Part shown: piece after piece, positions 4,884 to 16,051 of the stretch
Position numbering within the stretch: position 1 is the first letter of the stretch
How the letters are laid out: each line of letters opens with the position of its first letter
Source: Acidisarcina sp.
GTDB taxonomy: Bacteria > Acidobacteriota > Terriglobia > Terriglobales > Acidobacteriaceae
Reading direction: 5' to 3'
Length of the DNA: 64,000 nucleotides
Assembly (NCBI GenBank): GCA_035539175.1
Contig: DATLIY010000010.1
Coordinates: forward strand, 62,001-126,000
Program-made: the position numbers and the translations under genes
Notes under the pieces: model-generated
The model's input: the letters and a program-made list of their open reading frames with translations, nothing else
Database searches by the model: none
Told to the model about the DNA's origin: nothing

Positions 4884-5618
4884 TTAATAGACTGGCGCGG
4901 CGTTGTGGTCGTAATCCTCACCAAACTTATTCTTGTGGTGTGTCATTAGATCGCTCGTTTGCGGAATCTCGATGAGACCGAGGTTTGTATTATTGCCGGA
5001 GATTTGAACCACACGAGTTAGGGCATCAAGGCGTGCGAACTCCGCCCCTTCCGACCAAACACGCAATCGATATTGCCCGGCAGGAACGGCATGAATTACA
5101 GCTCTGTCATGCTCGTCGACCACTGCAAAGTATGAGGTGGCAAGGGTAAGCACAACCGCACTCATCTCCGGATGGATATTGCAGAAAATATAGGAGACGC
5201 CCTCGCGGCTGAAACGCACAGAACGCGTGCTGCCCGCCTCATACAATCCGAGGTCGAAGCGCCGCCCGTTAAACAGAGAAAAGACGTTGTGATAGAACGG
5301 ATCCTGATTCGGAAACTGCACGGTGCTACCCACCGGAATAACCAACAGGTGAGGCGTGAACTGCTTGTTCTTCTGCGCCAGCGTAAAGGAAGAGACGTGG
5401 GGTGCGGGAATAGATGCAGGATCGAGAGGCATCAGCCATATAACCGTCGAAAGAAGTTTCCTTGGCATTCTATGGGAAGCGTGAGCAGCCGGGTCAGCAT
5501 TTGTAGGAAGCAACCGCACCTGCGCAGCAACATCGAAATTTTGTGCGTGAATGCTCCCGCTGCATAGCAGCAGCACGAGTACTTTAGCGAAACCTCCCAT
5601 CCTGGTTGCCGTTGTCAT
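4884..5618 (-). CDS. Exported cupredoxin-like (type 1 copper) protein
   Basis: Protein of 244 residues with a signal peptide (MTTATRMGGFAKVLVLLLCS...HAQ). A plastocyanin-like fold is indicated by FPNQDPFYHNVFSLF, which supplies one His ligand, and by YIFCNIHPEMSAVV, which supplies the Cys, His and Met ligands of a blue-copper site. The C-terminal part (VVDEHDRAVIHAVPAGQYRLRVWSEG) resembles a carboxypeptidase-regulatory-like beta-sandwich. Such proteins sit in the periplasm and shuttle electrons or bind copper. It starts 4 nt after the porin stop codon, so translation is probably coupled to it. It lies last in a 12-gene minus-strand run that also holds a two-component system. The electron partner is unknown. 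Confidence 0.8.
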   Translation of the reverse strand: MTTATRMGGFAKVLVLLLCSGSIHAQNFDVAAQVRLLPTNADPAAHASHRMPRKLLSTVIWLMPLDPASIPAPHVSSFTLAQKNKQFTPHLLVIPVGSTVQFPNQDPFYHNVFSLFNGRRFDLGLYEAGSTRSVRFSREGVSYIFCNIHPEMSAVVLTLATSYFAVVDEHDRAVIHAVPAGQYRLRVWSEGAEFARLDALTRVVQISGNNTNLGLIEIPQTSDLMTHHKNKFGEDYDHNAAPVY

Positions 5619-5622
5619 AGTC

Positions 5623-7146
5623 TTAGAACTCGTAACCCGTACTAAGAACATAAGACTGAGCGGTAAAGTAGCTCCCACTTATCGGCCAGGTTCTTATGTT
5701 GCGAAATTCAAATGAAAATATCAGGTAGTTGCTTGGCCGATAAATTATGTTTCCGAAGGCCGTCTGATTGCGTGCGAGTGCGGCATTTGGATTCGTAGAA
5801 TCAAGTTGTGCAGAGCGTAGCTGACTTGCATAACCACCGTCTTGTCCGTAGGCAGTGTTCCATTCAATCTTGTCGGACATGCGGTATTTTATCTGGCTCC
5901 ATCCGCCGATTGCGTTCAACCCATCGATCTGTGCATACGGGTCTGAAAGCGTCTTTACCAACACCACGTCTTTGTAGGCGCCTCCTCCTAGTCCTCCTAG
6001 TGCGCGACCGCGATAGAACTCACCCGACAACTCCAGCCGTGCGGGTAACGCCAGCCTCCAGTCCGTAGTAACCGCCCAGGCATTGGTACTTTGACGGTAG
6101 CCATAGTCGTGGGGGCCCCAATATCCGCCAACACCAAAGATAGCGGATCGGCCGAATGGCTTACCGGTGTAAGACAGCAACAGTTCCGATCCTGGGTAGA
6201 GGCTCCGCTGTGCCGCGCTCACGCTCTTAGCCGAAGGGTTATAGATGTCAGCTGGGTCGGCCACGTTCATAACTCCTGCTTCGATGCCAAAGTGCCGCTC
6301 TCCCCAACTCATATCCTGTGACAACTTGAGTTGCGGGAGCCAAGTCCAGAGGTTCCCGGACCCGGCCAGGGGTGATACGCCAACTACTGCCATGGAGGTC
6401 GGCGAAAATGGTGAGATAAGCGGCTTGTCAAGCATCGCAACCAAGTGTGTTTTGCGCCAATCCAGTTCGGCGTGAGCCGTGCGCAAGCGCAGCCTGCCCT
6501 CGTTGGGCAAATAGCCAGATCCTTGCTGGTTGCCAAAGAAGTCAACGCGCACGTCGGCGTGGCTCTCGGCCCCGAAGACAACAGGTCCTTTGGCATCGAA
6601 GCCTAGAACGGTTTGTCGCAGGGTGGCGCCTGTACTGCCATGAGCAACCTCAGGCGTCTTATGCAACGCGATTACTGGCACATCAACGTTGTCCACCGCG
6701 CCCTTATTTACAAATGAGTGGAAAAGCACAAGCCCGGTGATTTTTATAGGATATTTCGATTGTGCCTCAACCTTGCTCTGTTCATGCTGAGCAACTTCGG
6801 CCTGCACCACTTCTTGATTCTCCTTGAGATTGGCGACGGCATCTGCAAGTTCGTTCGCTGGCCGGCCCGAGCCAACGTCAGCCTCGACTCCCGAGGTAGA
6901 CTCGCTTCGCTTCATCGCCTGTAGCTCTTGATGCAAGGCGCGTATCTCCGCGCGTGACTCCTGCAACTCCAGACGGGTTGCGTTGAGGACGTCCATCAGC
7001 GCATCGATTCGCTGTTCGATCTGCGCGTTCCTGTTCGTCTCGTTCAACGTTCCTATCTGAGCAGCAAGTTGCAACGATGACAGAACGAAGAGGACACCCA
7101 ACTGCGGGAGCCGGCGGCAGGCGCCTGTCGAAAACGCTGTGAACAT
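5623..7146 (-). CDS. Outer-membrane porin-like beta-barrel with N-terminal coiled coil
   Basis: Protein of 507 residues. A signal peptide ends near LQLAAQ and is followed by a coiled-coil segment (about residues 40-130: QIEQRIDALMDVLNATRLELQ and KENQEVVQAEVAQHE). The C-terminal region has alternating beta strands and ends in a strand with terminal Phe (VLSTGYEF), the usual assembly signal for BamA. Coiled-coil-plus-barrel porins resemble the phosphate- and sugar-selective types, but no substrate can be assigned. It is followed immediately by the cupredoxin gene and preceded by the sensor kinase (54-nt gap), suggesting a four-gene unit. Confidence 0.78.
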   Translation of the reverse strand: MFTAFSTGACRRLPQLGVLFVLSSLQLAAQIGTLNETNRNAQIEQRIDALMDVLNATRLELQESRAEIRALHQELQAMKRSESTSGVEADVGSGRPANELADAVANLKENQEVVQAEVAQHEQSKVEAQSKYPIKITGLVLFHSFVNKGAVDNVDVPVIALHKTPEVAHGSTGATLRQTVLGFDAKGPVVFGAESHADVRVDFFGNQQGSGYLPNEGRLRLRTAHAELDWRKTHLVAMLDKPLISPFSPTSMAVVGVSPLAGSGNLWTWLPQLKLSQDMSWGERHFGIEAGVMNVADPADIYNPSAKSVSAAQRSLYPGSELLLSYTGKPFGRSAIFGVGGYWGPHDYGYRQSTNAWAVTTDWRLALPARLELSGEFYRGRALGGLGGGAYKDVVLVKTLSDPYAQIDGLNAIGGWSQIKYRMSDKIEWNTAYGQDGGYASQLRSAQLDSTNPNAALARNQTAFGNIIYRPSNYLIFSFEFRNIRTWPISGSYFTAQSYVLSTGYEF

Positions 7147-7200: not shown

Positions 7201-9033
7201 TCATCCCTTGCTAGCACCCGCAGAGCTTGCAACTCTGGATGACACGCTGGATTGTGGAATACCTGGAGCGCGCTTGTTGAGCGAAAGCAGAAAGACTGTC
7301 TCACCAGGATCGCTCTTTACGAGAGCGACTGCCCCACCGTGTTCTTCCGCGACTCTGTGGGCAAGCGTAAGACCCAGTCCAACGCCATTTTCCTTGCCTT
7401 CGCTCACAAAAGGTTCAAACAAATTACCACGAATTGCCATTGCAACGCCGCTTCCATTGTCGGCCACGCGGATGTATAGCTGCTCCCCTGCTTGACCGAG
7501 TGTGATGGTGACGACTCCTTGCGGAAGGCCGCCACGATTCGCAGCCTGGCACGCATTCAGAACCAGGTTGAAGATCGCACGCTGCATCTTCTTCGCGTCT
7601 ACCCAGGCATCGAAGGAGTCGCCGTTCTTTGCCTCAACATTGATCCTGACAGTTGCCGCTTCGGGATGCGTCCCCACCAGTGCCACGGCTTTCTCCACCA
7701 GTAGGAGTACCGACTCTTGTGTCAGCTGAAGCGCGTTCCCGGTGCGACTAAACATCAGCAGGGATTCAATCAGATCGGTCATGCCGTTGACGGCAAGCCT
7801 GATCTCGCCAAACAGTTCCGTCTTTTCCTCCTCGTCGACCGCCGAGGCTAGAAACTCCGCATTGGCGTAAACAGCGGCGAGATAGTGGCGGAGATCATGG
7901 GAAACCGAGCTAGCCATCCGCCCAATAGTTGCCAGCCGTTCTGACTCGATGAGTTTTTGTTGCGTTCTGCGAATTTCATCACGCATACGCCCAAAGGCAG
8001 AGCTGAGTTCGTGAACCTCACGTGCCCCGGTCTGTGGGAGGCGATAGTTATAGTCGCCTGTACCCAATGCCCTTACGCCGGAGACAAGCGCTTCGATCGG
8101 CCGCGTTACGGTCCGCGTGATGGATAACGAAAGAAGGACGCCAACCAGCAAAGCCGCCGCTCCAAGCCCGAGAAAGAGATGGTTGAGCCGGCGAGAAAGC
8201 TCATCCTGCTGCCGGAACGATTTGAGCACGACTAGTTGAATATCGTCGCTGTTGCCCGGAGCGAGTTGGACAGCCACCGCACTGAAATGCTCCGGGCCCA
8301 GCCACAGCTCAACCACCCGCATTGGGCTCCGTAGTAGCTCCTGTGACGTTGCTGACAGCCGTATTTCCTGCGTTGAGTCCAGCGTACTGGCAACGACGAT
8401 GCCGTGCGCCAGAAATGTAGCTTCTGCCGCGGCAGCCTCGCTTACTTCATGCGCCAGACTCTGGTCTACGGAATATCCAATGATCACATAGCCCAGAATC
8501 TGGCCGTTGGCACGATTGCCGAAGTACAGTGGTTTGAATGTGAACTCGAAGAGCCTTCCATCCATCACCACGAAGCGGGGGTTGTTTTCGAGCTGTAGCG
8601 AGCTTTCCAGTGCAGTGCGTCGCGAGCGAACAAGATCTTCCGGAGAATACCTGTTTGCATTTTCCAGACCGCCAGAACCCTCATAGAGCGCAAGTACCTT
8701 TCCCTCAGAAGTAGTCAAGGCAAAGAGATCTGCGCCGCTCACCTTGAAAAATTCTTGTCCGCCGTCTTCGATCGTGCGGCGGTCGTGCGTCGTCATAAGT
8801 GCCTTCAGGCTGGGCAGGTCAGCGAGCAGTGCACCTTCGCGCGCCAGCATCTCCTGGCGCTGATGCTGTAGATTCTGAAAGGTAGCGACGGAATGAGTCA
8901 CATCGGAGGCGAGTGTTTCCGACATTTGCCGCTCTATTCGCGAGCGCACGACGAGCAGGCTCGCAGTCGTCAGGCCAACTGAGACAAGCAACAGTGGCAC
9001 CAGCAGCATGACCCGCATTCTTATTGGGGACAT
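7201..9033 (-). CDS. Membrane sensor histidine kinase
   Basis: Protein of 610 residues. The first membrane helix is about residues 8-28, a periplasmic sensor region of about 250 residues follows (double-Cache or CHASE-like, with LFALTTSEGKVLALYEGSGG), the second helix is about 287-305, and a HAMP linker ends near 358. The HisKA box SSVSHDLRHYL carries the phospho-acceptor His near 379. The ATPase domain shows the N box NLVLNACQA (N493), G1 DNGSG (D525) and G2 GVGLGLTLA. The kinase follows its response regulator by 44 nt and precedes a porin and a cupredoxin, so it probably senses an envelope signal such as redox state or metal and controls those genes. The ligand is not evident. Confidence 0.93.
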   Translation of the reverse strand: MSPIRMRVMLLVPLLLVSVGLTTASLLVVRSRIERQMSETLASDVTHSVATFQNLQHQRQEMLAREGALLADLPSLKALMTTHDRRTIEDGGQEFFKVSGADLFALTTSEGKVLALYEGSGGLENANRYSPEDLVRSRRTALESSLQLENNPRFVVMDGRLFEFTFKPLYFGNRANGQILGYVIIGYSVDQSLAHEVSEAAAAEATFLAHGIVVASTLDSTQEIRLSATSQELLRSPMRVVELWLGPEHFSAVAVQLAPGNSDDIQLVVLKSFRQQDELSRRLNHLFLGLGAAALLVGVLLSLSITRTVTRPIEALVSGVRALGTGDYNYRLPQTGAREVHELSSAFGRMRDEIRRTQQKLIESERLATIGRMASSVSHDLRHYLAAVYANAEFLASAVDEEEKTELFGEIRLAVNGMTDLIESLLMFSRTGNALQLTQESVLLLVEKAVALVGTHPEAATVRINVEAKNGDSFDAWVDAKKMQRAIFNLVLNACQAANRGGLPQGVVTITLGQAGEQLYIRVADNGSGVAMAIRGNLFEPFVSEGKENGVGLGLTLAHRVAEEHGGAVALVKSDPGETVFLLSLNKRAPGIPQSSVSSRVASSAGASKG

Positions 9034-9077: not shown

Positions 9078-9776
9078 TCAGGGAACGAATTTGTAACCGG
9101 CGCCGTGAACCGTAATGAAGTGTAGAGGATTCGCCGGGTCGATTTCGAGCTTTTGCCGCAACTTAAGGATCTGGTTGTCCACGGTGCGTGTCGTGGGATA
9201 GAAGTTATATCCCCACACATCGTTCAACAGCTCTTCGCGACCTATCACACGTTCAGGATTCTCGAGAAAAAATTTAAGAAGCTTAAATTCATGCGCTGTG
9301 AGCGCCACGTACTGGCCCGATTTGCGAACCGACATTCGAAGAAAATCAATTTCGCAGTTCCCAAACGTTAGGGCGGCGGCACGCGCGGGCTTTCTGGTTC
9401 TTCTGACAGCGGCCTGAAGTCGCGCAAGCAACTCACGTGGACTGAATGGCTTAGTCACATAATCATCAGCGCCCAGTTCGAGCAGTAGAACCTTATCCGC
9501 AACCTCGGCCACCGCACTTACCACGATCACTGGCGTATTCGGCGATGCGGCTTTGATGCGTTTGCACACCTCGCGACCGGGAACCCCGGGCAACATCAGG
9601 TCCAAAACCACAGCGGAGTGAGTAGCCGCGCGAAACACGTCGATTCCCCGCACGCCATCCATCGCCTCCTCCACCGCGTACCCCTCAGCGGCAAAAAGGC
9701 GCTTCAAGACCTTTTGCATCCTCGGGTCGTCCTCAATCACGAGGATCGTGCCGGTGCTCTGATTGGAATCAGTCAT
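9078..9776 (-). CDS. OmpR-family DNA-binding response regulator
   Basis: Protein of 232 residues from the chosen start MTDSNQ. The receiver domain has the acidic pair EDD near residue 15, the phospho-acceptor Asp in VVLDLMLPG (D59) and Lys in VTKPFSP (K109). The C-terminal winged helix (about 130-232) contains LTAHEFKLLKFFLENPERV and the recognition segment RTVDNQILKLRQKLE. GGAGGAG lies 12 nt upstream of this ATG; an alternative start is at 9797. It is paired with the downstream sensor kinase. Its promoter is probably in the 135-nt gap after the MFS gene or in the longer upstream operon. Confidence 0.94.
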   Translation of the reverse strand: MTDSNQSTGTILVIEDDPRMQKVLKRLFAAEGYAVEEAMDGVRGIDVFRAATHSAVVLDLMLPGVPGREVCKRIKAASPNTPVIVVSAVAEVADKVLLLELGADDYVTKPFSPRELLARLQAAVRRTRKPARAAALTFGNCEIDFLRMSVRKSGQYVALTAHEFKLLKFFLENPERVIGREELLNDVWGYNFYPTTRTVDNQILKLRQKLEIDPANPLHFITVHGAGYKFVP

Positions 9777-9911
9777 CAACTCGCGCGACTCCTCCATGCT
9801 CGTGATAATTCTCAACCCTATCCCGCCGGATGAATAGCCGGGCGCACGGAAATGACAATCTGATGACATTTGACGACAGACCGGGGACAAGGATTCTTTT
9901 GCTACATCCAG

Positions 9912-11102
9912 TCAGGGGGACTCCTTTCGCTTTGGGACAAGCAGAACCCAGAACAAAATAGCAGCAATCCCCGCGATGGCTGCTATACCGCGCAATGATA
10001 TAGGGTATCCATATTTGGCGAAACCCAGCCCCGCGCAGGCTGCCGCGACCATCTGCATTGCAGAGATAACCAGACTGTTGGACGCCGCCGCCCACCCGCG
10101 CTGATCCGCATCCACTTGATTCATAAGCAAGCTATATGTTCCCGGCTCATTCATCCACTGAAACGCGGTGAAGCCAACATAGACGACCATGGCTTGCAAC
10201 GGAGTGTGGGTCAAAGCAAGTAAGGCTAGACAGAGAGCCGTCGCGCACTGCGTGTACACAATACCGCGCACCAGGCCCCACCGCCGAAATACAAGTGGAG
10301 CGCTAAAGACCGCCACTACCTGCAGCAATTGGGAAACTGAAAAGATCGTCCCAACCTGAGGAAGGGGAAGATGCAAGTGGTGAGCAAAGTAGACATTCGC
10401 AAAGGGACTAAACGAACCCGTCACCAGACTCCATACAGCAATCGCAGGCAGGAACCGAGCGAGAAAAGGAGAAAAGAAGGGTCTGTTCTGGGCAGGAATA
10501 CTGGGACGAGGAAACTTAAGCTGCGCCGCAGGTATCAAGCTCAGCGCTGCGATGCCGCACGAGAAAAGTAAGACTATCCGCTCCGGCTCGACGGCACGAG
10601 ATATGACGGGAAAACCAGTAAATATTCCAGGCAGCCTGCCTCCCGCTAGCCCCGCCATCGCTCCAACACCGATCCCCAGAGAAAAAAAGAGGCTGAATGC
10701 AAATGGACGCTGCCTCTCATCTGTTAATTGCGCAACAGCGGGAGCAATGCAAATCGCCCAGATAGAAAGCGCAACTCCAGATACAAAAGCGAGAACAAGC
10801 TGCCCCTCGAATTCAAGCCACAGTGCGCGACTGGAGAATATAGAAACCGCAAGCAAGATACAGGAAAGCAGAGTAAGCCGAAGCCCACATCTTTGAATCA
10901 ACCTACCCGCCGGGATCGCACCGGCTAAATTTCCCGCCGCCATTGCACTCGTTAAGAAACCAAGTCGCATCTCTGAATAGCCATGACTCATGAGAAACAG
11001 GTTGAACAGAAAGAAGTAGATGGACAGGCCTAGGTCAAAAAAAAAGATGCTCCGAGAAAGGTCCAGAACCGCTTGCCAAGTTGCCGTTGCAACAGCCACC
11101 AT
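9912..11102 (-). CDS. Major facilitator superfamily transporter
   Basis: Protein of 396 residues with about 11-12 hydrophobic helices. The first helix (FFFDLGLSIYFFLFNLFL) and the following MRLGFLTSAMAAGNLAGAIP match MFS drug/metabolite exporters, and GRLIQRCGLRLTL is the cytoplasmic loop 2-3 motif region. Its start codon lies 73 nt inside the upstream nucleotidyltransferase gene in another frame. The first helix needs that region, so the overlap looks real and implies translational coupling. The substrate is unknown; the neighbours (HPr-kinase-like, nucleotidyltransferase) would fit export of a modified peptide or small molecule. Confidence 0.85.
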   Translation of the reverse strand: MVAVATATWQAVLDLSRSIFFFDLGLSIYFFLFNLFLMSHGYSEMRLGFLTSAMAAGNLAGAIPAGRLIQRCGLRLTLLSCILLAVSIFSSRALWLEFEGQLVLAFVSGVALSIWAICIAPAVAQLTDERQRPFAFSLFFSLGIGVGAMAGLAGGRLPGIFTGFPVISRAVEPERIVLLFSCGIAALSLIPAAQLKFPRPSIPAQNRPFFSPFLARFLPAIAVWSLVTGSFSPFANVYFAHHLHLPLPQVGTIFSVSQLLQVVAVFSAPLVFRRWGLVRGIVYTQCATALCLALLALTHTPLQAMVVYVGFTAFQWMNEPGTYSLLMNQVDADQRGWAAASNSLVISAMQMVAAACAGLGFAKYGYPISLRGIAAIAGIAAILFWVLLVPKRKESP

Positions 11103-12355
11103 TCGAAGCCGTGAAAAAGCATTGCAGGTACCAGATATGCTTGCGTCACGGTACGGGATACCAGATAGGAAATGTACTGAATATTAGGACGCGTGCTTAT
11201 TTTTCTGGTGCGCCTATGCCTTAACCCAATTGCAGGCGAACTTCTGCTGGGAATCTTCTTTGGGACAATAGCCCGGAATAGAACGGCTCGCTTTTCCTTT
11301 GCAGTTGACAGCAATGCCGCATGCAGCAAAACCCAATCTCTGTTCAGTCGGAACATCCCTTCAAGAGAAGACCCGGAGAACAAGCGCAGCCATTGCGCCA
11401 CGCCCGGAGAGAGTTGGAGGATTTCTGCATCTACACTCTGATGAACATCACAGCGGAACCATGCCTTCGCGTGCGCAAAAGCAATGGCCTCAAGTGAACG
11501 CTGGTAATTGGAGTGTGTAGCCGTCCACTCGTCCCAAAAGCCATCATCGTTCGCGTGTTCATGAAGGAACCGCGACAATTCATAGACGTGGTGAACAACC
11601 CAGTCCCCTGCCAATATATTGCGCAGAATGTGAAGAGCAAGATAGCCGAGGTGATCGATTCTGTTTAGCGCCGGAAACTTGATCTCCTCCAATGTCCTGC
11701 TTACTCGTCGATTCCACAATAGTTCAACGTCCGCAACCGGTAACATCAAGATAGGTTCATTCCATAGACAAAAGTGAAGCTCGATGGAAAGCGGCATATC
11801 CGGGTCGAACGGATTTCCTCGCCACGCCCAAGACCCACGGCGAATCATCGCAGGGAGATGATCGGCGCGACTATATTCCATGGACCTCTCCGCTTCATAG
11901 CCGATGCCTTCCAGCGCAGTCTTTGCGCGTTCCAACCCTTCCAATGGGCAAAACAAATCAAGATCAGATTGAGTTCGGAGGCGAGGATTCTTTACATAAT
12001 CTGGAGATTGAGTGAATCCCTTGAGCACCATAAATTCGATATGTGCTCTCTCCAGTGCTGCTGCAGCCTCTTCGTAAGTTCTCTTGACACGTTCAAACCG
12101 CGCTTCGTTGTCGGCCACATTTCTCTTTAGCCGTTCTGCTACCCATTGCGGGAAGCCGTCACTTCGCACTTCAGAAAGAAATAAGGTTAGATGTGCTAGA
12201 TCTGCGACTTCAAGCAGTTGGCTCCACTGATTCGCAGTCAACTCCTGCAGTGCCGTTGTACTTGCACCTTTGAGCTGGAGTGCAGCCATCAGAGCAATAA
12301 ACTCGGGTTGGACTCGCGAAACCGGAATTCTGTTGCAGATATTTTGTGTGTTCAT
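11030..12355 (-). CDS. Nucleotidyltransferase family protein (NTP_transf_5-like)
   Basis: Protein of 441 residues. The segment YEEAAAALERAHIEFMVLKG followed by RTQSDLDLFCP carries the DxD motif of the Pol-beta-like nucleotidyltransferase fold, as in the uncharacterised nucleotidyltransferases of exopolysaccharide and lasso-peptide clusters. ELHFCLWNEPI and DHLGYLALHILRN follow as in the family. The last ~70 residues are basic and hydrophobic and overlap the MFS start, so the C-terminus may be extended relative to relatives. It begins 6 nt after the HPr-kinase-like gene. A homologue is encoded at 57559-58788. The transferred nucleotide and acceptor are unknown. Confidence 0.78.
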   Translation of the reverse strand: MNTQNICNRIPVSRVQPEFIALMAALQLKGASTTALQELTANQWSQLLEVADLAHLTLFLSEVRSDGFPQWVAERLKRNVADNEARFERVKRTYEEAAAALERAHIEFMVLKGFTQSPDYVKNPRLRTQSDLDLFCPLEGLERAKTALEGIGYEAERSMEYSRADHLPAMIRRGSWAWRGNPFDPDMPLSIELHFCLWNEPILMLPVADVELLWNRRVSRTLEEIKFPALNRIDHLGYLALHILRNILAGDWVVHHVYELSRFLHEHANDDGFWDEWTATHSNYQRSLEAIAFAHAKAWFRCDVHQSVDAEILQLSPGVAQWLRLFSGSSLEGMFRLNRDWVLLHAALLSTAKEKRAVLFRAIVPKKIPSRSSPAIGLRHRRTRKISTRPNIQYISYLVSRTVTQAYLVPAMLFHGFEWWLLQRQLGKRFWTFLGASFFLT

Positions 12356-12361
12356 CGAGGT

Positions 12362-13369
12362 TCACCGCCCAGAGTTTGCGAGTAGTTCAAGCCGCTCTAC
12401 GGCCCAATCCAAATCCTTGTAGCGCAGCTCGAACGTCTCTGCCTCGAGCACCCGCCGAATTGCAGCCTCCTGCGCAGAATAGGAATCGACTGTTTTGATC
12501 AGATCATGGATGAATCGCTGCAACAGCCGCTCCTTGGCTAGAGGAAGGAGTTTCGGGCTTCCCACATCGCGCCGGTTGAGGAAGACGATGTACTCGACTG
12601 ACGCGGAATCGGCCGTAGCCAACGCAGGAAGCTCGACCATAGGAACCTCGATGGAGGGCTTGCCGACCGCACGGGGAGTAACGGTTCGTCCTTCTATTTC
12701 CGGGAAGAGTTCAGCAGCGGTAACTCGGAAACGAATCTGATGTGAATTCCCGACGACTATACGATCATCACGGTTTAAAGGAACATAAGTTGCATCATCC
12801 GATGTATATGTCCATCCTGCACGAACACACGCGAATGCCAGAGAAGATTTTCCGGCGCCCGAGTCACCGCATAGCAGCACCCCCCGGCCCTCCAAGCTCA
12901 CGCACGCAGCATGGAGCGGGGCAGCACGCAGAGAAGCAATCATCGAGTACCCTGCAGCCTCCAGCATGTGATATCTCAAGTACAAAGTCGAGTACGCGGT
13001 TGATCTCGTAACCCAACCAAAAGAACGACCTTCCTTGAGATTGCACACTACGAAGTTACGACTGTCTGCGATATTCAAGAGCAGGTTCCACTGAAGTCTG
13101 CAGAGCGGAGCCGGAGGTATTTCATGATCGCCTGAGTCCTCGGTTACTCCAATCTGGAGCACAAGGGGTGGCAGCGCAAACTTGAACTGAAAACGTCTCC
13201 AGCTTTCTCTGGCTGCCTCTATGACCGCAGGTGAATTAGTGGCAACTTCGATCGGAAAACCGAGGGGGAAATATAGAATCCGCAGCGGCAGAGCCGCATT
13301 CGCTAACAGCGGGTCACTGTCAGTTCTAGTCACGATGCCTTCTGCCATCTTTCCATTTGCATTGAGCAT
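12362..13369 (-). CDS. HPr kinase-like P-loop protein
   Basis: Protein of 335 residues from the chosen start MLNANGKM, which has GAGGG just upstream. The C-terminal half carries PLHAACV, the P-loop GDSGAGKSS (about 168-175) and TYTSDDATYV, the layout of HPr kinase/phosphorylase homologues. The HPr kinase C-terminal signature and any PTS partner are absent. Such stand-alone HprK-like proteins occur beside PqqD, nucleotidyltransferases and asparagine-synthase-like enzymes, and one class phosphorylates lasso peptides (known for the paeninodin kinase). The frame stays open to 13543, but a longer start would overlap the cytochrome gene by 110 nt. The substrate is unknown here. Confidence 0.75.
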   Translation of the reverse strand: MLNANGKMAEGIVTRTDSDPLLANAALPLRILYFPLGFPIEVATNSPAVIEAARESWRRFQFKFALPPLVLQIGVTEDSGDHEIPPAPLCRLQWNLLLNIADSRNFVVCNLKEGRSFGWVTRSTAYSTLYLRYHMLEAAGYSMIASLRAAPLHAACVSLEGRGVLLCGDSGAGKSSLAFACVRAGWTYTSDDATYVPLNRDDRIVVGNSHQIRFRVTAAELFPEIEGRTVTPRAVGKPSIEVPMVELPALATADSASVEYIVFLNRRDVGSPKLLPLAKERLLQRFIHDLIKTVDSYSAQEAAIRRVLEAETFELRYKDLDWAVERLELLANSGR

Positions 13370-13433: not shown

Positions 13434-13931
13434 TTATCTATCTGTGCTGTCGTCGTTGCCTGTATAGATTCGTGGCTCTCCCAGAGAACCCGATGGTGGT
13501 AAATGCCGCAAATAAAGTACGATTGCCCACATATCTTCATCACTCAGAATTCCGCGCGAAGCCGGCATGCCAGAAGGCGAAACTCCATTCTCGATAACCC
13601 ATTTCAACTGGCCGTCACTGTAGCTCTGAACCTCCTGCGATGCTAGAGAAGGAACTGGGGGAGACATTCTTGCCGCGAAGGGAACACCTGTATTCTGGCC
13701 ATCCGCCCCATGACATACCACGCAGTAGAACCCAAACGCATGCTTGCCCATCTCCAGTGATTCGGCATCATCCTTCATCGGGTTTCTCACTTGCCTGTTG
13801 CCAACGGTCAGGTGATGTTTTATCCACTGCATCAACTGAATTTCACGCTTTCCGGGCGTTGAAACACGGCAGCCCCCCAGGGTAAGACAAATAATATTGA
13901 TGGCGATGAGTTTAAAAGTACGTCGTCGCAT
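13434..13931 (-). CDS. c-type cytochrome lipoprotein (cytochrome c6-like)
   Basis: Protein of 165 residues from MRRRTFKLIAI. The N-terminus is a lipoprotein signal with lipobox LTLGGC. The heme-binding motif CVVCH follows (FGFYCVVCHGADGQ), with a likely axial Met in GVSPSGMPASRG and the final helix DEDMWAIVLYLRHLP typical of class I cytochromes c. It should be anchored in the periplasm and pass electrons. It starts 8 nt after the CuA-type gene, so the two are almost certainly co-transcribed and may exchange electrons. Confidence 0.88.
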   Translation of the reverse strand: MRRRTFKLIAINIICLTLGGCRVSTPGKREIQLMQWIKHHLTVGNRQVRNPMKDDAESLEMGKHAFGFYCVVCHGADGQNTGVPFAARMSPPVPSLASQEVQSYSDGQLKWVIENGVSPSGMPASRGILSDEDMWAIVLYLRHLPPSGSLGEPRIYTGNDDSTDR

Positions 13932-13939
13932 TCCTTTGC

Positions 13940-14296
13940 CTACTTCACGTGGATAGTAAAGAGCATCGATCCGTGACCGCTTCCGCAAAACCTTCCACAC
14001 TGTCCGCGATAATCTCCCGTAGTGGCTGGAGTAAATGTCACTTCGGATGTGCGCCCCTTAGATATGGTCTGATTGATGCCCAGTTCTCTAATCGTTAGGC
14101 TGTGAGAGACGTCGTCCGATATAAGCTCCAGCGTGACAGTTTCTCCATTCTTTACTGTGATCTCCGCAGGCACAAAGGCGAAACGATGTGCATGGACCTC
14201 TATCCTGCGACTTGTTTCATGAACCTCCGACGATGTTTGCAAATGGACAAGAACACCTGAAAGGCTCAGCGTAAGAATTAACCAGGAACAATTCAT
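13940..14296 (-). CDS. Small CuA-type (cytochrome c oxidase subunit II-like) cupredoxin
   Basis: Protein of 118 residues from MNCSWLILTL, with an N-terminal hydrophobic signal or anchor. The cupredoxin core ends in CGRFCGSGHGSM, the CxxxCxxxHxxM pattern that binds the binuclear CuA centre, with the upstream His in DDVSHSLTI. All CuA ligands are therefore present, although the usual Glu between the Cys residues is Arg here. The two-helix membrane hairpin of true COX2 is missing and no oxidase subunit I is nearby, so it is probably a free or anchored electron carrier, or a copper chaperone/sensor domain. It sits between two c-type cytochrome genes. Confidence 0.85.
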   Translation of the reverse strand: MNCSWLILTLSLSGVLVHLQTSSEVHETSRRIEVHAHRFAFVPAEITVKNGETVTLELISDDVSHSLTIRELGINQTISKGRTSEVTFTPATTGDYRGQCGRFCGSGHGSMLFTIHVK

Positions 14297-14369
14297 AGTG
14301 TTATGGAGTCCTCTATATCTCACATATCCCGCTCATATAAATGTTCTCTCTTATGGAACAAGAGTGTTG

Positions 14370-14669
14370 TTATGGTGCTAGGTACCGGAGAAGAAGTTGC
14401 TCGTCCTCGCGGGATAAGCGTGCCCGAACCCGCATGTGCATAATCACCGTTCCAGTGACCCGCGGTGCAAGGCTCATCGGGAGCGCGTGACAGCGTCCGC
14501 AGTTCGCGATAAAGACCTGTTCGCCTGTATTCGACGGGTTAGTTCGCGTTGAGGATGGCTTTTCTTTGACGGACTGGCGCGGTGATTCACCAATCTTCGA
14601 CGAGCCACCTGCCATAGCCACTACGCAGAGAAGAATCAGGGAACCAATGCATGCGAGACAGGATTTCAT
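14370..14669 (-). CDS. Small exported c-type heme protein
   Basis: Protein of 99 residues with a signal peptide (MKSCLACIGSLILLCVVAMAGG), a low-complexity linker and one heme motif CGRCH (FIANCGRCHALP). A possible axial Met lies in VIMHMRVRARLS, and the C-terminal helix EDEQLLLRYLAP resembles the end of a minimal cytochrome c. Its ATG overlaps the stop of the upstream outer-membrane gene by 4 nt, so the two are translationally coupled. It may pass electrons between that barrel protein and the CuA protein. Confidence 0.82.
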   Translation of the reverse strand: MKSCLACIGSLILLCVVAMAGGSSKIGESPRQSVKEKPSSTRTNPSNTGEQVFIANCGRCHALPMSLAPRVTGTVIMHMRVRARLSREDEQLLLRYLAP

Positions 14670-15715
14670 CTTTCCCCCTCCCGCCAGAGTGGAAGACTGA
14701 ATCGGTAGGTTAGTCCAACGTTCCAGACATTTATATTTCGGCTCACGCTAAAGCTTCTTCCGTAGCTCGAGACTATCCGGATGTCGTCGCGCAGGTAGTA
14801 GTTGATACCAACATCGGTGCGTTGCGTGTTGGTACGTGGCAGGCTGTTGCCACCACCATGCAACGGCACAACCTGCTGCATGCGCCCTACCACTTGAATG
14901 TGCCGCAAAAAGGACGGTATCGTAGGCCCCTCGAAAAGATAAGAGGTCTCCAGCCAGTATCCATTCCCGTTGTAGCTATAGTCGTACTCTGCCTTCAAGT
15001 CGAGATGTATAGCCTTGGGCTGCCAGGAGACATACGTGGCGACGCTGTTGATCTGATGGTTCTGAAGGACGCGTTGATAGGAAACACCCGCTTCAACACG
15101 CGGCTTTGGCCAATAGAGGCTTCCATCTCCGCCGGCAGCACGCCCGGAAACTAACTGCTCAATGTTGCTAGGCGCAGAAAAATAGGCAGTGTATTGGACG
15201 GTGTAGGATGGCATCTGCACAGCCACTCCGCGCAGCATGAGGCCATCTCCTGCTCCAGTCGGACGTGTACCAATGGTCGCAGTGATTGGAGCATCCTGAA
15301 GGTCTTTGATCCAGATCGGTTGTAACCGCTCGTTGTAGAGCCCGAAGGGAAGAAGGTATCTTCCAGCCGTAACAATTACGTACGAATTCATTAGCCAGTC
15401 GAACTGTGCGAACTCTATAGTCTTGAAGACTTTCCCTTTAAATGTGCCGTAAGTTCGGTTCTGATGTTGAAAGAAGCCAGTGAAGTCGACGCGAGATTCA
15501 AGAAGCACATGTCGCCCGAACGGTACAACTAGGACTGGATCGATCTGCGGCTCCAGCGAAGTCACTCCACCATTAACGCTGTGGACGTACCCCATTCCTC
15601 CGGAGAGCAGCGGCACATGTCCGGCATGGTCCTCCATCTCCTGCGCAGATAGAGTGAAAGAGGCTCCAGCAGCAAGCGCAAGACAAAATGCGATCTGTTG
15701 GAATTGGTGCAACAT
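14666..15715 (-). CDS. Outer-membrane beta-barrel-like protein
   Basis: Protein of 349 residues with a signal peptide ending near TLSAQ, followed by a His-rich stretch (MEDHAGHVP). The rest is alternating short strands rich in Tyr and other aromatics, ending in NVGLTYRFSLPLWREGER. No named family was recognised; the pattern resembles porin-like proteins with a DUF-type barrel. It is first in the minus-strand gene run and overlaps a small cytochrome gene by 4 nt. The His/Met-rich N-terminus just after the signal could bind metal, which is inference. Its promoter should lie in 15716-16051. Confidence 0.7.
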   Translation of the reverse strand: MLHQFQQIAFCLALAAGASFTLSAQEMEDHAGHVPLLSGGMGYVHSVNGGVTSLEPQIDPVLVVPFGRHVLLESRVDFTGFFQHQNRTYGTFKGKVFKTIEFAQFDWLMNSYVIVTAGRYLLPFGLYNERLQPIWIKDLQDAPITATIGTRPTGAGDGLMLRGVAVQMPSYTVQYTAYFSAPSNIEQLVSGRAAGGDGSLYWPKPRVEAGVSYQRVLQNHQINSVATYVSWQPKAIHLDLKAEYDYSYNGNGYWLETSYLFEGPTIPSFLRHIQVVGRMQQVVPLHGGGNSLPRTNTQRTDVGINYYLRDDIRIVSSYGRSFSVSRNINVWNVGLTYRFSLPLWREGER

Positions 15716-16051
15716 ATCTATACCGCATTCCTAAAGAGGCTGCGCGCGCCCGATTCATTGCTTTAGGTATCTCCAAAGCAATAGAGCTGAGTATAGGAAG
15801 AACATAATTCGCATCTGTCATTGTGATGTCATTGCTTTGTCACGATTCGGCAATAGATGAGTAGCCGTACAGGTTAGCAATAAATATGAAGACTTGAAAT
15901 CAGTACGGAGATAGATCGTGATCGGCTCTGGTCTGACAAGGCAAAAGGCAAAATGACACAAAGAGGACAACTCAATGACAAATCATTTGGCGTTTGTCAA
16001 CGATACTGATGCTCATTTGTTACGGAGACATTGGAAGCGAAGGAGTCAAAG
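15716..16051. other. Divergent intergenic region upstream of redox run and sugar transferase
   Basis: This 336-base A/T-richer stretch should contain the promoter of the long minus-strand run and that of the sugar transferase. An open frame at 15975-16172 is preceded by GAGGAC and begins MTNHLAFVND, but it runs out of frame into the sugar transferase and looks spurious. A TGTGATGTCATTGCTTTGTCAC segment near 15820-15842 is weakly symmetric. No confident operator was found. Confidence 0.45.

Follow-up and report, generated by a model that had tools for sequence, protein, structure and literature searches.

A small gene on the reverse strand of an Acidisarcina genome of 3.9 Mb encodes, as judged from its sequence, an exported/periplasmic CuA protein, which may act as an electron carrier within a small envelope relay that ends at the outer membrane rather than as a component of an oxidase; this reading is given a probability of about 0.48. 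The gene (13940..14296 (-)) lies within the window, the 64,000-nucleotide part of contig 10 that was analysed here. It is a member of a recurring unit that consists of a porin gene, a mini-cytochrome gene, and the CuA gene, with a gene for a cytochrome c lipoprotein as a frequent fourth member. In the standard picture, CuA centres are found in terminal oxidases and in NosZ. A free-standing CuA carrier that is not an oxidase subunit, which an earlier note on this DNA had proposed, is now well supported, given the three subunits II elsewhere in the genome, the absence of NosZ, and the pairing with cytochrome genes in relatives that are described below.

The unit is tightly spaced. OMP (14666..15715 (-), 349 aa), a predicted exported beta-barrel outer-membrane protein that is porin-like, with 16 predicted strands and no haem motif, is followed by cytS (14370..14669 (-), 99 aa), an exported mini monohaem c-type cytochrome whose ATG overlaps the OMP stop. 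Next come the CuA gene, whose 118-residue product has a single N-terminal hydrophobic segment, and cytL (13434..13931 (-)), which encodes a monohaem cytochrome c lipoprotein and has its ATG 8 bases past the CuA stop. The earlier note placed the CuA protein between cytochromes; this was a fair guess, but it overlooks the main pattern of porin, mini-cytochrome, and CuA, since the run as first read left out the porin gene that overlaps cytS. Past cytL the run continues on the same strand with an HprK-related kinase (12362..13369 (-), start set at a Met; Pfam Hpr_kinase_C 1.6e-8; NCBIfam HprK_rel_A 1e-10, below cut-off), an uncharacterised NTP_transf_5 nucleotidyltransferase (11030..12355 (-); Pfam 3.1e-28), an MFS transporter (9912..11102 (-); Pfam MFS_1 7.3e-27), a response regulator with a C-terminal DNA-binding domain (9078..9890 (-); Pfam), and a sensor histidine kinase with dCache_3, HAMP, HisKA, and HATPase domains (7201..9033 (-); Pfam). 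It then reaches OMP2 (5623..7146 (-), 507 aa), a conserved neighbour classed by eye as a second outer-membrane-type protein, for which a Pfam search gave no match at 0.01, and PCL (4884..5678 (-)). PCL may be a further copper protein in this run: it is exported and has, by eye, a type-1-copper-like pattern (F-P-N-x-D-P-F-x-H-N ... C-N-I-H-P-E-M), and its one Pfam match is to fn3_3 (0.0019, under that family's cut-off). A sugar transferase gene is divergent at 16031. (A scan for promoters and terminators gave results no better than those from shuffled sequences.)

The three open reading frames from which the analysis started occupy 13434-14000 (-), 13940-14323 (-), and 14370-14669 (-). The middle one opens with GTG, and its likely start is the ATG at 14296; numbered from this position, the CuA ligand set is complete, comprising H65, C100, C104, H108, and M111. 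The segment CGRFCGSGHGSM matches C-x3-C-x3-H-x2-M, and the upstream His lies in DDVSH, as had been claimed from the letters alone. Pfam concurs (COX2, E=1.9e-10; Cupredoxin_1, E=9.5e-12, with 45.3 bits against a gathering threshold of 27), as does the closest solved relative, the CuA domain of Thermus ba3 oxidase (E ~1e-10; 1.2e-26 to 5.7e-25 in a profile search), and these E-values argue that the CuA assignment is not due to chance. Structure prediction, which the earlier note had suggested as a check, gives a model with a core pLDDT of ~98 that superimposes on the Thermus ba3 CuA domain (2cua/1ehk) with an rmsd of 1.0-1.1 at 33-34% identity. Because nitrosocyanin and bo3 subunit II also rank high when the model is compared using VIA-align, the fold alone is no proof of a CuA site. 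The ba3 subunit II domain shares both the fold and the full ligand set; unlike it, the window protein is a free exported domain that has no oxidase partner and falls outside the oxidase branch of the CuA tree. Given these ligands, it would be expected to bind copper.

The ligand motif, together with a His 26-48 residues upstream, is kept in 71 of the 74 distinct free-standing CuA-profile ORFs of the fetched loci, a set that omits duplicates, four oxidase-type ORFs, and two multi-domain loci. With a looser test, which takes in these ORFs and asks for C-x3-C-x3-H-x2-M and any His located 25-45 residues before it, the count is 86 of the 89 CuA-profile matches in loci L040-L124 plus the window. 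Altered copper ligands in relatives, raised earlier as a point against a CuA carrier, are thus confined to three of the 74: L069, from the window's own family, where Ile replaces the Met; L118, with Cys in place of His; and L121, in which both the upstream His and the Met differ. A degenerate remnant is rejected on the same count. (In the alignment used for folding, which holds the window and 69 of 71 candidate rows chosen by the motif, the invariance of C, C, H, and M is a selection effect.) Across the phylum, 77 of 396 genomes have a match to the CuA protein at E<=1e-10, some of these being true oxidase subunits II.

From a model of moderate confidence (pLDDT 73.4), OMP is predicted to be a 16-strand outer-membrane porin with an ordinary porin fold; its best Foldseek matches are porins, such as 8bym_A (E=1.9e-11). 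Sequence searches with OMP gave no Pfam family over its cut-off, no NCBIfam match, and no PDB match at E<=1. A signal peptide is seen by eye (14 OMP sequences were aligned), and CxxCH, which was looked for in 60 OMP ORFs, occurs in 0 of them. The haem motifs CGRCH and CVVCH are located as had been reported, in the 14370 ORF and in the 13434 ORF with its LGGC lipobox, respectively. CytS has one CxxCH only and so is not multihaem; it matches Pfam Cytochrome_CBB3 at E=0.0035, under the curated cut-off, and C-x-R-C-H and H72-M73 are invariant among 14 aligned sequences. CytL, whose likely start is the ATG at 13931, matches the same family at 2.6e-11, and the Cys of its lipobox (assigned by eye) is invariant in 23 aligned sequences. 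Its best PDB match is 6f0k_E (2.2e-12), the monohaem subunit of a quinol:cytochrome c oxidoreductase (alternative complex III), but cytL is encoded with CuA and not with such a complex. In the window's own genome, an alternative complex III and a bc-type complex adjoin oxidases (by eye).

The window CuA protein is probably not a stray oxidase subunit. It scores 58.3 bits against the CoxB model, whose cut-off is 147.7, and covers only positions 118-191 of 202, so that the part corresponding to the COX2 membrane hairpin is absent, as was first observed from the sequence. Subunit II of ba3 oxidase itself has a single N-terminal membrane helix, and therefore the lack of the hairpin does not settle the matter by itself. 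A search of the whole genome for cox and nos genes, another suggested check, is more telling. Five COX1-family genes above the cut-off and one weak fragment are present. Three of these genes are nearest to cytochrome c oxidase subunit I (scored over the matched stretch only, they fall below the cut-off of the subunit I model), and each of the three has its own subunit II, on contigs other than that of the CuA gene. These subunits II match nearly the whole CoxB model, with 182.7, 172.1, and 116.0 bits, the third being also below the cut-off. For the two further COX1-family proteins, which lie in frames of 773 and 791 aa, a search with the matched stretches gave no NCBIfam model at 1e-20; by their size they are perhaps nitric oxide reductases. 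No oxidase or NosZ gene is found near the CuA gene in the run, in keeping with the first reading, and no NosZ exceeds the cut-off anywhere in the genome; the matches of a genome search with TIGR04246 are confined to CuA domains, those of two oxidase subunits II and that of the window protein, which, at 118 aa, lacks the NosZ propeller domain. Both a stray oxidase subunit and a NosZ relative are rejected on these grounds. In a 114-row tree of CuA domains, four oxidase-type domains form a separate branch (100/84), within the limits of an alignment of 96 columns in which the deep forks are weak.

PmoD/AmoD, a periplasmic cupredoxin with a CuA centre outside oxidases and NosZ, is the one such exception in the literature consulted. 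In PmoD the CuA is shared by two monomers, the motif is Cx7MxHxnC, and a membrane helix is present at the C-terminus (PMC6189053). That motif is absent from the window CuA protein, in which, unlike in PmoD, all ligands belong to one canonical loop plus the His.

The neighbourhoods of relatives (those that are named being Edaphobacter, other Acidobacteriaceae, or unclassified Acidobacteria) bear out the pairing of CuA with cytochrome genes in many genomes, and a comparison of this kind had been proposed at the outset. (The match of L044, taken as a fifth relative, spans 13 residues only.) The tightest pair is that of OMP and cytS: every one of the 58 non-identical OMP ORFs has a cytS gene no more than 2.4 kb away on its own strand, and 53 of them have it within 400 bases. 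(The fetched loci hold 60 OMP ORFs, and the split genes L050 and L157 count as two ORFs each.) In a search of the sampled family, Acidobacteriaceae, that started from OMP, 40 of 120 genomes have OMP; a CuA-ligand gene lies within 3.3 kb of it in 35 of the 40 and at 7-11 kb in another four (G130, G454, G225, and G480). In the last genome, G424 (L150), OMP and cytS are present and a search for a CuA gene found none. These proportions are to be read knowing that the seed sequences of the OMP profile were OMPs linked to CuA, which favours finding more such OMPs. The figure of 35/40 is nevertheless the one relied upon, because the fetched loci are biased towards CuA genes: the 48 of 58 OMP ORFs that have CuA within 3 kb are an inflated count, most of L040-L124 having been fetched around CuA genes. 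OMP and CuA are on different contigs in G233, G249, and G103, and the same OMP-cytS-CuA triad is found in two genomes of one genus of another family (L182 and L183).

Viewed from the CuA side, the association is looser. An A1-type CuA, found in 52 of the 120 family genomes, is shared with OMP in 23 (Fisher p=0.03, relatedness ignored). The weakness of this association comes from a divergent lineage that escapes the A1 profile at the threshold used; 16 of the 17 genomes with OMP but no A1-type CuA carry a divergent CuA beside OMP-cytS. In a partly overlapping family sample, a CuA match is present in 17/17 OMP-positive genomes vs 5/14 OMP-negative ones (p=1e-4, relatedness ignored), and in G112, one of these five, the match is of oxidase type. 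The divergent CuA sequences, which were labelled by their low profile score, form 22 rows on one long branch of the tree (100/100, length 1.79), apart from the window's group of 40 rows (91/93), which mixes CuA proteins linked to OMP with those accompanied by cytL only. Sequence comparison thus places two well-separated CuA lineages beside the porin. Either the porin-haem pair has switched its CuA partner or one CuA lineage has diverged fast; on either reading the porin is tied to a CuA protein. A small exported protein with the conserved sequence D-S/T-Q-C-A-x-N-V-H-S-L-T, weakly similar to DUF5818 (L134 tested), follows the divergent CuA in L131-L134 and L137, and in L137 it shares one frame with CuA.

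CytL, found in 42 of the 120 genomes, occurs together with CuA in 36 (Fisher p=3.7e-12, relatedness ignored). It is adjacent to CuA in 24 of 32 distinct family CuA loci and missing in 8; counted by cytL loci, 25 of 45 are within 1.5 kb of CuA and 20 are not beside it (six of the latter were fetched, and five read with their neighbours). A cytL paralogue without CuA recurs beside apparent cell-envelope lipid genes (by eye) in L125, L126, and L128, and G233 has a second CuA-cytL pair (L068:6085-8558(+)) after a DUF1501 gene. At least three of the response regulator, histidine kinase, OMP2, and PCL genes lie near CuA in 12 of the 32 family loci.

How these parts might work together can be outlined. 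OMP and cytS would form the outer-membrane end of the relay, with the haem protein located in or under the barrel. CuA would shuttle single electrons between this end and the periplasmic lipoprotein cytL, which in turn would exchange electrons with a respiratory chain whose genes lie in other parts of the genome. Electrons could flow in either direction, being taken up from, or discharged to, Fe(II) or humics. In one relative (L136:2520-5404(-)), the OMP-cytS-CuA set leads on to genes for a 4Fe-4S protein and a membrane protein of the NrfD type, through which a set of this type could reach the quinone pool. The envelope relay is favoured because of this quinone link, because of the likeness of cytL to alternative complex III, and because the order of parts resembles that of the Cyc2 pathway.

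The last of these is the chain Cyc2 - rusticyanin - Cyc1 of iron oxidisers, described for the rus operon of Acidithiobacillus (PMC10654088). There, as here, an outer-membrane porin with one haem, a cupredoxin, a periplasmic c-type cytochrome, and the respiratory chain follow in that order. The likeness noted here is one of the order of parts: Cyc2 is a fused porin-cytochrome, whereas in the window porin and haem are separate genes, and rusticyanin is a blue copper protein, whereas here there are CuA ligands, in a run that lacks oxidase genes. A second point of comparison is provided by the MtrAB/MtoAB/PioAB and OmbB-OmaB-OmcB conduits, which combine a porin with a multihaem cytochrome (PMC6344600). 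They too have a porin gene beside the gene for an exported cytochrome and carry electrons across the outer membrane; unlike them, the present set has a monohaem cytochrome and includes a copper protein. In the sources consulted, known porin-cytochrome conduits are multihaem or fused as in Cyc2 (PMC6344600, PMC12016527), and homologues of the Pio-type porin-multihaem system have been reported from Acidobacteria (PMC10654088). A literature search, limited to titles and abstract openings among the papers listed, found no porin-cytochrome-CuA set and no free canonical CuA carrier. More tentatively than for the relay as a whole, it can be suggested that the set represents a new type of outer-membrane conduit, in which a barrel of general-porin size is combined with a separate single-haem mini-cytochrome and a free CuA shuttle. 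If so, a canonical CuA centre would serve as a diffusible carrier in the envelope, Gram-negative bacteria would have a new way, with few parts, of moving electrons across the outer membrane, and Acidobacteriaceae of the soil would be candidates for electron exchange with iron or humic matter, by a solution different from the Pio-type conduits of the same phylum. The unannotated porin and cytochrome genes would then have a function that can be tested.

The main competing explanation is a relay that is purely periplasmic, in which CuA, cytL, and cytS link a periplasmic dehydrogenase or respiratory complex to an oxidase and the porin is simply a co-regulated solute channel. The resemblance of OMP to general porins fits this, as does that of cytL to the monohaem subunits of alternative complex III and CcoP; in addition, many loci have the CuA-cytL pair with no OMP in the fetched stretch, and 29 of the 52 A1-CuA genomes of the family sample are devoid of OMP. 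Because of these OMP-free genomes, and of free-standing CuA relatives that adjoin a phosphoesterase or a dihaem peroxidase-like gene where no OMP is seen, CuA cannot be regarded as specific to the relay proposed here. A mere solute channel, however, accounts poorly for the invariable pairing of OMP with cytS, for a CuA gene in 39 of 40 OMP genomes (35 of them within the 3.3 kb), and for the recurrence of OMP with two CuA lineages, and this explanation is considered unlikely, if well ahead of those that follow.

The gene neighbourhood also allows another role, in which CuA would be a carrier for polysaccharide or envelope redox chemistry, feeding or draining an oxidoreductase whose task would be to modify exopolysaccharide or to deal with peroxide close to it. 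Polysaccharide-type markers (at least one of Wza, Wzz, flippase, glycosyltransferase, WecB, ligase, HprK-like, and NTP_transf_5) lie within 9 kb of CuA in 24 of the 32 distinct family loci. Some relatives pair CuA with a dihaem protein: a gene for a product of ~400 aa is directly beside CuA in L088, L091, L098, L103, L115, and others, and in L098, the one tested, it is a peroxidase-like DHOR protein by Pfam. Yet synteny inside one family may be inherited, no sugar-acting oxidoreductase is recognised in the run, and the only markers near the window CuA are the HprK-like and NTP_transf_5 genes; profiles for Wza, Wzz, WecB, ligase, flippase, and GT4 find nothing in the window's 64 kb. The OMP loci with divergent CuA that were checked (L131, L132, L134, and L136) also lack the marker profiles, L131 having a glycosyltransferase-like gene by eye. 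Taken as a whole, a polysaccharide role seems improbable.

Still less probable is a function in copper handling or stress sensing, whereby a CuA-like site would store, deliver, or sense copper, or sense reactive oxygen or nitrogen, without passing electrons on. The two-component system and the second cupredoxin-like gene of the run would suit such a function, and in other clades the CuA gene adjoins a sigma/anti-sigma pair and an exported phosphoesterase, which has the look of a stress regulon. Against this, the near-universal retention of a full electron-transfer ligand set among free-standing relatives and the frequent pairing of CuA with haem proteins speak for electron transfer, and a Pfam scan of the run's 11 genes gave no copper pump, Sco, or CopC. 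Finally, it is scarcely credible that the protein serves an oxidase of another locus as a detached or substitute subunit II: the nearest solved relatives are indeed oxidase CuA domains, but all three oxidase loci have a subunit II of their own, the matched stretches of the 773- and 791-aa COX1-family frames hit no NCBIfam model at the threshold given above, and oxidase CuA domains branch separately.

Beyond the porin-linked set, CuA genes occur in several other settings. An exported metallophosphoesterase (Pfam-tested in L070) adjoins CuA in 13 loci, mostly of other families, usually with the sigma/anti-sigma pair divergent, and 6 of these loci have a cytL-like gene as well; this metallophosphoesterase-CuA unit recurs in Acidobacteriota (L062, L064, L070-L073, L077, L079, L081-L083, L085, and L086). 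In two loci (L116:4170-6146(-) and L122:5953-7821(+)), a CuA-type cupredoxin domain is fused to a Fer4_5 membrane protein, and in L116 the neighbours of the fusion gene encode a nos_propeller protein and, separately, a 174-aa CuA-like protein.
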